Assembly (NCBI RefSeq): GCF_001692325.1
Contig: NZ_LXKN01000070.1
Location: 186,001-250,000 of the forward strand
From: Rhizobium sp. AC27/96
GTDB taxonomy: Bacteria > Pseudomonadota > Alphaproteobacteria > Rhizobiales > Rhizobiaceae
Direction: 5' to 3'
DNA: 64,000 nucleotides
The notes beneath the pieces were generated by a model. It ran no database searches. It was not told the DNA's origin and was given only the letters and a program-made list of their open reading frames with translations. Made by a program: the position numbers and the translations under genes. Shown here piece after piece: positions 46,607-50,341 of the stretch; position 1 is the first letter of the stretch, and every line of letters begins with the position of its first letter.

Positions 46607-47044
46607 ATGGTGCAGAGTTCGGATGAGACCTTGTCGCAGGCGGATTACGAGGCGCTGGCCACATTGCGCTACACACTGCGCAAATTCACTGATTTCAGCA
46701 CATCGGCAGCGCAGGAGGCCGGCCTGCCGCCGCAGCAGCATCAGGCATTGTTGGCCATCAAGGGCAATCGGCAGGGCGAGGCGATGACGATCGGCATGCT
46801 GGCGGAGCGGTTGCTGATCGCGCCGCATACAGCGACCGAACTTGTGGGGCGGCTGATTGATGCCGGCTATGTCACGCGGCATCCCGATCCCGTCGACAAG
46901 CGCCGGCAGACGCTGCGGCTGACGGAGCAATCCGAAGAGGTGTTGCTGCGGCTGAGCGCCATCCACCTGCGCGAAATCCGCGACATGGCGCCGGAACTCA
47001 TCGAGATCCTCAAGCATCTACAGGCGGATGTGCGTAATAACTGA
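46607..47044 (+). CDS. MarR family transcriptional regulator
   Basis: Winged-helix regulator of 145 residues: YEALATLRYTLRKFTDFSTSAAQEAGLPPQQHQALLAI, MTIGMLAERLLIAPHTATELVGRLIDAGYVTRHPDPVDKRRQTLRLTEQ (recognition helix and wing), and a C-terminal dimer helix. GAGGA is 8 bases before the ATG at 46607, so the earlier start (46556) is rejected. It is divergent from the ClC gene and sits next to the palindrome at 46547. Confidence 0.9.
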   Translation: MVQSSDETLSQADYEALATLRYTLRKFTDFSTSAAQEAGLPPQQHQALLAIKGNRQGEAMTIGMLAERLLIAPHTATELVGRLIDAGYVTRHPDPVDKRRQTLRLTEQSEEVLLRLSAIHLREIRDMAPELIEILKHLQADVRNN

Positions 47045-47083: not shown

Positions 47084-47800
47084 TTATTGACCGAGGCGGA
47101 TGCCGCCGTCGCAGATCAGCGTGTGGCCGCTTGTAAAGCCGTTGCCGATCAGGAAGCTGATGGCCTCGGCGATCTCCTGCGGGCGGCCGACGCGGCCGAC
47201 TGGCGTGCGTGCCGCGAATCCGGCAAAGGTCGGCTCTTTCTGGTCAGCGCTCAGGAAATCCCACCAGGGCGTGTCGACGACGCCAGGCGAAACGCAGTTC
47301 ACCCGGATCGGCTTGAGCTCGACGGCGAGAATCGGTGCGAGGGCGGCAATGGCGGCATTGATGGCTCCGAGCCCCGCAGTTCCGGGCATGGCCGCCTGGG
47401 CCGAGACGGCGGAGACGAAGGTGATGCTGCCCTGCTTCGACAGGTGGGGAAGGCAGGCCTGCGCACAGGCAAAATGCGCCATCGTCTTCTGTTCGAAGCC
47501 CTTCCTGAGATCGGCGAGATCAACAGTGGCGAAAGGACCTGCGCCGTTGCCGCCGCCCAAAGCCAGGACGAGGTGATCGAGCGGTCCGATTGCGTCAAAA
47601 GCGTTGGCAAGGCCGGTAAAGTCAGCCGCATCCATAACGGCAGCAGTGACATCGCCATTCAGGCCTTGCGCCGCTGTCTGGAGCTTCGCTGCGTCGCGAC
47701 CTGTGATCGTGACACGATATCCTTTTTCGAGAAGATGGACAGCAGCCGCAAGGCCGATGCCGGATGAACCGCCGACAATAACAACGTGTTGAGACGACAT
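47084..47800 (-). CDS. SDR family oxidoreductase
   Basis: Short-chain dehydrogenase of 238 residues: HVVIVGGSSGIGLAAA, no exact NNAG but LVLALGGGN in its place (atypical), SSVSAQ-like ITFVSAVSAQ around the Ser, and an AALAPILAVELKPIRVNCVSPGVVDTP block. The normal Tyr-x3-Lys is replaced by GLGAINAAIAAL, so the catalytic Tyr and Lys are not seen; it belongs to the atypical SDR group. GGAG precedes the ATG. Function unknown. Confidence 0.85.
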   Translation of the reverse strand: MSSQHVVIVGGSSGIGLAAAVHLLEKGYRVTITGRDAAKLQTAAQGLNGDVTAAVMDAADFTGLANAFDAIGPLDHLVLALGGGNGAGPFATVDLADLRKGFEQKTMAHFACAQACLPHLSKQGSITFVSAVSAQAAMPGTAGLGAINAAIAALAPILAVELKPIRVNCVSPGVVDTPWWDFLSADQKEPTFAGFAARTPVGRVGRPQEIAEAISFLIGNGFTSGHTLICDGGIRLGQ

Positions 47801-47845: not shown

Positions 47846-48511
47846 TCAGGTGAGGTCGGTCAGGCTTTGGCTGAATGTTCGCAGCTTTTGGCGCGCAGCC
47901 GTGTCGTAGGCTTGCGCGCTGGCGCGGGCAGCGCGCAGCCCATCGAAATAGAGGCCAGTGCGTCCAACCAGATCGTCGCTTATTGCCAGATTGAGGATGG
48001 CATCGGCGCCTTGATCGACGGTGCTGATCGGCGTGACGCCCGACAGGCGCACCATGGTCGTATCCATATAGGTCGCCGGGTGCAGGCAGTTGGCGGTGAT
48101 GCCGGCGCCGGCCAGTTCCTCAGCGAGATCGAAGGTGAACATGATCTGCGCCAATTTGCTCTGGCAATAGGCTCGCACGCCGCTATAGCCGCGCGTCAGC
48201 ATGACATCGGAGAAGTCGATTGCCTGTTGGCCGGCGGAGGAGACATTGACGACGCGGGCTGGGCTGCCTGCCTTTAATAGCGGCAGGAGACGATGGGTCA
48301 GCAGGAAGCCGGCGAGATAGAAGGCCGCCTTTCCGCCGGCGTTGTGGATGCGGGAGACCAGATTTTCGGCGCGTGCGGCGTTGCGGCCATGCACCAGCAC
48401 CGTGGCACCTGTCGCCGCCAGTCTTTCCGCAACCCTGCGGCCGACACCATCCGTCGAACCTGTGATCAGGATCGTCTTGCCGCTCATGTCCATCGCAACT
48501 GCCTCCGTCAT
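47846..48511 (-). pseudogene. SDR family protein with an internal deletion
   Basis: 221 residues from the ATG at 48511 (longer alternative starts upstream). The Rossmann motif TGSTDGVGRRVAERL, a catalytic Ser in VVNVSSAG, and Tyr-x3-Lys in YCQSK are all present. However, the sequence runs directly from AGGKAAFY to LAGFLLTHRLLPLL; homologues have about 60 residues here, including the NNAG loop and beta-D/E strands. This in-frame join near 48317 would remove part of the cofactor fold, so the protein is probably inactive. It is divergent from an MmyB-type regulator, a common SDR-regulator pairing. Confidence 0.6.
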
Positions 48512-48594
48512 GTCTCTGACCTGATATTTGGCAGCTTGCAAAAGCGATAAACAGTTCTGGCTTTATCCTAGTATTGATCCTGCTATGATAAGCG

Positions 48595-49458
48595 ATGACC
48601 ATCAATCAGAGCCAGACCGTTCTCGAAGTCAGACGTCGCGAATTCGGCGCCTTTCTGCGTTCCCGCCGGGAGAAGCTGACGCCATCAGGCGTCGGGCTGC
48701 CGGAGGGATTTCGGCGGCGCACGCCGGGGCTCAGGCGCGAGGAAGTGGCGCTTCTCGCCGGCGTCGGCACCACCTGGTACACATGGCTGGAGCAGGGGCG
48801 GGACGTTCGCGCCTCATCGGAGGTTCTGTCGGCACTGGCGGATGCGCTTCGGCTCGATCCCGCCGAGAGGCGACACCTCTTCACCCTCAGCGATCGGCCG
48901 CCGGCTGAGGCGCCGTCACGCGGGCCTGAGGATGTGCCGGATGCGCTGCGGCGGATGCTCGCGAGCCTTGCAGGGCAGCCGGCCTATGTCCTCGGCAGGC
49001 GCTGGGACGTGCTGGCTTGGAACGCGGCAGCGGTCGCGCTTTTCGGCGATTACAGCCAGTTGCAGGGGGATGCGCGCAACAGCGTCCATCGCGTGTTCAC
49101 CGATCCTGCCCATCGGCAGCTTCTCGTCGATTGGGAGATCGTGGCGGCAAATTCGCTTGCGATGTTCCGTGCCGACAGCGCCCGCTACGCCGGCGATCCC
49201 GATTTCGAACGGCTGATCGCCACCTTGACGCAGGTCAGCCCGGAATTTCGCGCCTGGTGGCCGAGACAGGACGTCTTGCGGCCGCTTACCGGTCACAAGC
49301 GCCTCCGTCATCCCGAAGGTGGGCTGATGACATTCGAATATACCGCTCTTGCCGTCATGGACCGGCCCGACATTAAGCTGGTGGTCTATACGCCGCTCGA
49401 CGAGGATGGGACGAGTGGCAAATTGAAGGAACTGTTGCGCCGGAACAGCGCGGCGTAA
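48595..49458 (+). CDS. MmyB-type helix-turn-helix transcriptional regulator
   Basis: 287 residues: XRE-like HTH near the N-terminus (FGAFLRSRREKLTPS, TPGLRREEVALLAGVGTTWYTWLEQGRDV) and the MmyB ligand-binding domain behind it (AAVALFGDYSQL, NSVHRVFTDPAHRQLLVDWE, RLIATLTQVSPEFRAWW). Members sense fatty-acyl-like or other hydrophobic ligands and usually repress a neighbouring dehydrogenase. It is divergent from the deleted SDR gene, so the regulator may now control a defective target. Confidence 0.9.
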   Translation: MTINQSQTVLEVRRREFGAFLRSRREKLTPSGVGLPEGFRRRTPGLRREEVALLAGVGTTWYTWLEQGRDVRASSEVLSALADALRLDPAERRHLFTLSDRPPAEAPSRGPEDVPDALRRMLASLAGQPAYVLGRRWDVLAWNAAAVALFGDYSQLQGDARNSVHRVFTDPAHRQLLVDWEIVAANSLAMFRADSARYAGDPDFERLIATLTQVSPEFRAWWPRQDVLRPLTGHKRLRHPEGGLMTFEYTALAVMDRPDIKLVVYTPLDEDGTSGKLKELLRRNSAA

Positions 49459-49467
49459 TTTCTCGTT

Positions 49468-49791
49468 TCAGCTCTCCATGTCGCTTTTCAGCCGATCGAG
49501 GATGGACAGTGCGTGCCCTGCATAGGCGCTGATCCAGCGGTCGTGGATCTGCTTTATCGGAAGGCTGTTCAGATGGTTCCAGCGCTCCCGACCTTCTTTC
49601 CTGGCGATAACGAGGTCCGCCTCCTCCAATACCTTCAAATGCAGCATCACCGTGCAGCGGTCCATATCCGCGAAGGTCTCGCAAAGCATTCCCGTCGTCC
49701 GCGGCGCCTCCTTGAGAAGGTCGAGGATTTCGCGCCGGCGACGATGCGCAAGGGCCTTGAAAATGAGGTCGCTGTCTGATTCGTTTGACAT
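49468..49791 (-). CDS. ArsR family transcriptional regulator
   Basis: 107 residues: DLIFKALAHRRRREILDLLKEAPRTTGMLCETFADMDRCTVMLHLKVLEEADLV gives the winged helix, then GRERWNHLN. Cys are few, so not a metal sensor. It is divergent from an SRPBCC gene; a perfect palindrome overlaps its start codon (49790-49809), consistent with autorepression and control of the SRPBCC gene. ArsR-AHSA1 pairs are common. Convergent with the MmyB gene (9 bases). Confidence 0.9.
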   Translation of the reverse strand: MSNESDSDLIFKALAHRRRREILDLLKEAPRTTGMLCETFADMDRCTVMLHLKVLEEADLVIARKEGRERWNHLNSLPIKQIHDRWISAYAGHALSILDRLKSDMES

Positions 49792-49809
49792 GTTATATTT
49801 TTATAACAT
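49790..49809. promoter_or_regulatory. ArsR operator palindrome over the regulator start
   Basis: ATGTTATA (49790-49797), TTTT, TATAACAT (49802-49809): perfect 8-bp inverted repeat with a 4-base spacer. Its left arm includes the ArsR start codon on the minus strand, and it sits 50 bases upstream of the SRPBCC start. Confidence 0.7.
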
Positions 49810-49858
49810 AATGGGGCCGCTCGCAATCGTGCGGCAATCAATTTGCGGAGGAGACGCC

Positions 49859-50341
49859 ATGACATTGAATGTTCGTATTTCAGGCCGGATTGGCCGCAAG
49901 GTCGAGGAGGTCTTCGACGCCGTCGTCAATCCGAAAAAGCTGTCGAGCTATTTCACCACCGTCGGCGGTGCCAGCGCGCCGCTGGTGGCGGGAACGACCG
50001 TCATCTGGTGGAAGGACGCGCCGGTCGAAGTCGAGGAGCTGGAGGTCAACCGGCGGATCGTCCTTCGCTGGGACGGCGGTACCGGTGAGGATGGCATCCG
50101 CTACAAGACCAAGGTGGAGATGACGTTCGATCCGCTGGATGATGGCGGCACGCTGGTGATCATAGAGGAATCCGGCTGGCGCGAGGACGAGGCCGGCCGT
50201 CGCGGCACCTACCTCAACTGCGAGGGCTGGACGCAAATGCTCTGCTGCATGAAGGCCTTTGTCGAATATGGCATCAACCTGCGCGAAGGCTTCTTCCTCA
50301 GCGAGATGCGCGGCGAGCCGGCGGAGGCGCCGGATCGTTGA
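49859..50341 (+). CDS. SRPBCC (AHSA1-type) domain protein
   Basis: 160 residues with the AHSA1/START-like fold: RISGRIGRKVEEVFDAVVNPKKLSSYFTT, VWW...EELEVNRRIVLRWDG, then TLVIIEESGWREDE and a C-terminal helix. Binds a hydrophobic ligand; enzymatic role unknown. GGAGGAGAC directly precedes the ATG at 49859; a frame from 49652 overlaps the ArsR gene and is rejected. It is under the divergent ArsR gene. Confidence 0.88.
   Translation: MTLNVRISGRIGRKVEEVFDAVVNPKKLSSYFTTVGGASAPLVAGTTVIWWKDAPVEVEELEVNRRIVLRWDGGTGEDGIRYKTKVEMTFDPLDDGGTLVIIEESGWREDEAGRRGTYLNCEGWTQMLCCMKAFVEYGINLREGFFLSEMRGEPAEAPDR

Follow-up and report, generated by a model that had tools for sequence, protein, structure and literature searches.

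Probable in-frame deletion of the NNAG segment from an MmyB-linked short-chain dehydrogenase/reductase gene in Rhizobium sp. AC27/96

A 64,000-nucleotide stretch of DNA from Rhizobium sp. AC27/96 (contig NZ_LXKN01000070.1, positions 186,001 to 250,000; hereafter the window) carries two genes for short-chain dehydrogenases/reductases (SDRs) next to a divergent regulator gene, and the first of the two, SDR1, is shortened. SDR1 (47846..48511, minus strand) encodes 221 aa, compared with 273-280 aa in the 27 orthologues of the genus that adjoin the same regulator; its translation has no inner stop and runs ...GGKAAFY-LAGFLLTHRLL.... The regulator, an intact MmyB-type XRE protein (48595..49458, plus strand), has both expected domains, HTH_31 (PF13560) and MLTR_LBD (PF17765), scoring above cut-off. 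Its start codon (ATG at 48595) is 84 nt from that of SDR1 (ATG at 48511, minus strand), or 90 nt counted from the first aligned residue, a layout in which an SDR gene and a divergent MmyB gene share an upstream region. The second SDR gene of this cassette, SDR2 (47084..47800, minus strand), is full length and follows SDR1 downstream in the same orientation.

Much of the SDR architecture is retained in SDR1. The glycine-rich cofactor motif TGSTDGVG (residues 17-24; 48440..48463, minus strand) follows the TGxxxGxG pattern, with T17, G18, T20, G22, and G24 invariant among 34 aligned sequences, and the candidate catalytic serine, Ser92 of NVSSAGQQ (48236..48238, minus strand), and the YxxxK motif (Y115 and K119; 48155..48169, minus strand) also occupy invariant columns of that alignment. 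The C terminus is retained alongside them. The original prediction, made from the sequence alone, had described the Ser, YxxxK, and C-terminal parts as intact, in agreement with both the sequence and the invariant columns. The Pfam matches come in two parts: adh_short covers residues 12-65 with profile positions 1-54, and adh_short_C2 covers residues 69-155, entering its profile at position 109, so that SDR1 skips the middle of the family profile. An intact orthologue (L127) is matched by adh_short without a break, residues 10-210 corresponding to positions 1-189 of 195. Set against the SDR superfamily (PF00106, adh_short), SDR1 thus shares the N-terminal glycine motif, the Ser, and YxxxK, but is without the profile middle, which holds the NNAG loop and what is probably the Asn of the tetrad. 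A sequence search of the PDB with SDR1 matched, among the alignments looked at, only SDRs, and these in pieces.

In the protein alignment, the gap in SDR1 relative to its relatives falls between ...GGKAAF and YLAGFLL, where the relatives carry a DLSS motif, an INNAGIG loop, and RFAVN, including the Asn of FAVN. We take DLSS to be the end of beta3, to be followed by alpha3, INNAGIG to lie on beta4, and RFAVN to be the start of alpha4; the Asn of FAVN would then probably correspond to the alpha4 Asn of the N-S-Y-K tetrad. This Asn column is nearly invariant, and FAVN ends just ahead of the junction in relatives; in SDR1 it is gone, as is the NNAG loop of beta4. Most of beta3 has been kept, a strand being modeled at residues 61-65, across the junction. 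In an alignment of 96 proteins, comprising the window SDR1 and 95 relatives (some of them one genome under two collections), SDR1 is by far the shortest, the other 95 measuring 264-296 aa, and N[NC]AG is matched in 94; the two misses are SDR1 itself and L012, a full-length protein that reads SNAG at this point. All 27 intact orthologues adjoining MmyB contain the 56-57 codons (168 or 171 nt) of which SDR1 is short. The absence of an NNAG segment that the original prediction had proposed is thereby upheld, since full-length homologues, both these 27 and the 95 aligned relatives, carry it; its figure of about 60 residues can be refined to 56-57. No second intact copy of SDR1 was found among the 26 other, weaker matches in the same genome, the best of which shows 41% identity over 75 residues (E-values 4.5e-10 or weaker). 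The opposite polarity, with the short form ancestral and the segment gained by insertion in the relatives, has been rejected and carries practically no weight: the segment belongs to the general SDR profile and is present in all 95 aligned relatives, from Rhizobium to actinomycetes, and no point was found in favor of that reading.

The junction had been predicted to lie at 48310-48330 and can be placed at 48310..48319 (minus strand), where the window holds a single copy of the 10-nt word TATCTCGCCG (on the complement), made up of the codons Y-L-A and the first base of G; it is here that the 168 or 171 nt are lacking. Two in-register sites in the 27 intact orthologues, measured in codon steps, are 168 nt apart in seven rows and 171 nt apart in 20. 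Because their codons, for the similar motifs YLAD and YLAG, are in register with each other, a deletion between them preserves the frame. One orthologue, L125 (genome G154), has the exact word TATCTCGCCG at both sites, 171 nt apart, and in two further orthologues among the 27, L123 and L126, the two sites share other exact 10-nt matches. Slipped mispairing can produce deletions between short direct repeats in bacteria. SDR1 would have lost its 168 or 171 nt in a single in-frame deletion, most likely with TATCTCGCCG or a near form of it as the short direct repeat at either end. The case would then resemble other deletions of this kind in its repeats of about 10 nt and the one copy remaining at the junction, and differ from them in that the ancestral repeat is reconstructed from a relative.

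Two observations weigh against this mechanism. The remaining 24 of the 27 relatives have in-register matches of only 2-7 nt, and direct repeats of at least 10 nt, spaced at least 30 nt apart, are not rare, with 34 exact ones at any place in the 27 genes. With the ancestral 5' repeat represented only by relatives, most of which match poorly, deletion between short direct repeats nevertheless appears to be the most likely, and best-fitting, origin of the truncated gene. That an in-frame deletion took place, as first proposed, agrees with every intact orthologue measured. A different source of the short form would be an assembly error, in which the segment is present in the cell and was collapsed by the assembler. 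The assembly is a 75-contig draft for which reads are not available, and to that extent such an error is conceivable, but the word shared at the junction is about 10 nt, far below the length of the words on which usual assemblers join, the junction lies well inside a contig of 298,866 bases, about 64 kb from its nearer end, and the outcome is exactly in frame. Together these make a collapsed segment very improbable.

The consequences for the protein can be considered from what has been lost. With the end of beta3, alpha3, beta4 and its NNAG loop, the start of alpha4, and the probable tetrad Asn missing, truncated SDR1 probably cannot act as a normal SDR and is likely to be inactive. The short gene would still be named an SDR oxidoreductase in annotation, which calls for caution where such names are taken at face value. 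A structure model from the sequence alone is poor (predicted local distance difference test, pLDDT, 41.3). Foldseek searches with the SDR1 model recovered many SDRs (50 rows shown, with TM-scores of 0.56-0.72 on the query and root-mean-square deviations of 3.6-8.7), matches that are not informative on activity.

Two lines of evidence count against simple inactivation. When 33 relatives are supplied, AlphaFold returns a model that looks confident (mean pLDDT 85.9, predicted TM-score 0.83); this is no evidence of folding or stability, because the intact relatives bring their own fold into the alignment. The rest of SDR1 shows no clear decay, which fits a recent event but would also fit a retained function. 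The rate of nonsynonymous change (dN) between the window gene and 27 relatives is 0.105-0.145, within the normal range, the SDR1/MmyB dN ratio of 1.99 ranks fifth of 28, and the window SDR1 breaks five otherwise invariant columns, compared with six and five in the two intact genes that have changed most. Neither the dN nor the invariant-column comparison gave a clear signal of relaxed selection on the remnant, and that reading was set aside. The short SDR1 might instead have kept or gained a function other than normal catalysis, perhaps by partnering SDR2 or by serving as a ligand sink for MmyB. Its open frame, its conserved N and C termini, the lack of a clear excess of amino-acid change, and the SDR-like core that the model appears to retain are all compatible with such a role; a recent deletion would look alike, however, no relative was found with the short form, and SDR1 can be missing outright, so that a retained function is considered unlikely. 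A more specific version, in which the 221-aa remnant would persist as an SDR-like protein without catalysis, able to bind a ligand or SDR2 and to modulate the MmyB circuit, has a still slimmer chance. As to the age of the deletion, which the original prediction had called recent, the uniqueness of the truncation in the genus set and the absence of a clear excess of amino-acid change lend weak support in a comparison made with genomes of other species.

The arrangement in the window belongs to a widespread cassette in which MmyB is divergent from SDR1-SDR2, with SDR1 as the first gene. Among 80 named loci, the best 80 of 142 with SDR1 relatives, MmyB is divergent in 40, and SDR2 is present in all 40. 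These include Rhizobium, Mesorhizobium, Pseudomonas, Herbaspirillum, Burkholderia, Paraburkholderia, and Roseiarcus, and the gene order deviates in one locus (L076), where MmyB and SDR1 flank SDR2. Of the remaining 40 loci, none shows an MmyB match and eight show an SDR2 match (89% in L039, 30-55% in seven); some of the 80 end close to SDR1 (e.g., L039, cut by a contig end), and a missing MmyB there may reflect the end of the contig. The MltR paper reports MmyB-type genes adjoining SDR or medium-chain dehydrogenase/reductase (MDR) genes in actinomycetes (PLoS One 2012; PMC3406030). The divergent layout of regulator and SDR is alike, whereas the cassette here is rhizobial, has two SDRs in a row, and has the first of them broken. 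A literature search pairing the terms MmyB and short-chain dehydrogenase returned no match, though that paper treats the topic in other wording, and the titles of MmyB-Rhizobium literature name no such cassette.

The state of SDR1 across the genus was followed in a census of 148 genomes, from which alone the loss counts are drawn, since the 96-protein alignment repeats some genomes. MmyB is present at E 1e-60 or better in 85: 34 are close (at least 82% identity), 33 fall at 67-71%, and 18 are distant (42-46%) and lie outside the SDR1 count. Of the 34 close genomes, 31 have an intact SDR1. The others are the window's genome with its truncated gene, G173 with a remnant, and G003, whose locus (L025) was excluded from the count of changes as the contig ends inside SDR1. 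Intact SDR1 stands beside MmyB in 30 of the 31; in the other, G020, the genes are at the ends of different contigs, and the genome was counted as intact on the strength of SDR1 on another contig (L010). An intact SDR divergent from MmyB is thus the normal state, as the original prediction had it and in line with what is reported for actinomycetes. The two-SDR cassette and the absence of SDR1 elsewhere had not been seen at that stage.

Truncation like that of the window occurs in no other genome of the census. In G173 (L140), approximately 20 last codons of SDR1 remain at 1328-1387, between SDR2 and MmyB, and the rest has been deleted, a second loss separate from that in the window. The group with MmyB at 67-71% identity presents a further situation: in 31 of these 33 genomes (loci L177-L181, L183, and L186-L210), SDR2 adjoins MmyB on the opposite strand without SDR1, the SDR2 match in one of them (G119, L192) being partial and starting at residue 125, while G034 and G140 have both SDR1 and SDR2. 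On the MmyB tree the state of SDR1 changes at least four times, three of these being forced by starred branches; this tree was built quickly, 34 of its 70 inner branches are left open, and its outgroup is not one side of a branch. By comparison of these loci, the states of the window and G173 are losses, because both sit among SDR1 holders and carry remnants; the absence of SDR1 in a group of 30 rows is likely a loss as well, the rooting being unsure. SDRs approximately 50-51% identical to intact SDR1 lie at 991-1788 of L184 (G173) and at G144:C3:37238-38035; the 2.9-kb stretch covered for the former contains no MmyB.

Regulation of SDR1 by MmyB can be inferred because the layout is conserved. 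Between the two genes lies a strongly conserved block, from AAACAGTT to TTTATCCTAGTATTGATCCTGCTATGATAA (48549..48591), that is intact in the window; in an alignment of 29 rows (L134, too short, was omitted), its conservation extends to the window and G173. Two words within it, ATCCTAGTAT and ATCCTGCTAT, resemble each other at a spacing of 12 nt, and the block is a possible promoter/operator region. Beyond the cassette, the window has a MarR regulator on one side (46607-47044) and an ArsR-type regulator with an AHSA1-domain gene on the other (49468-50341); frames similar to these neighbors also flank the cassette in L140. Among plasmid records, 188 match part of a 3-kb query and none covers 80% of it, and the 20 matches listed overlie the MarR gene.

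Since other members of the genus do without SDR1 yet keep MmyB and SDR2, SDR1 would appear to be the dispensable member of the cassette. Translation through SDR1 continues after an in-frame deletion, and a polar effect on SDR2 is therefore not to be expected. Very probably, then, a dispensable MmyB-linked SDR1 has been lost by in-frame deletion, with SDR2 left readable downstream. The loss is ordinary gene decay in a neat comparative setting, and it illustrates cleanly that one of two linked enzymes can be lost in more than one way without loss of its companion enzyme or the regulator. This pattern suggests that SDR2, not SDR1, may be the core partner of the MmyB-type regulator in Rhizobium.
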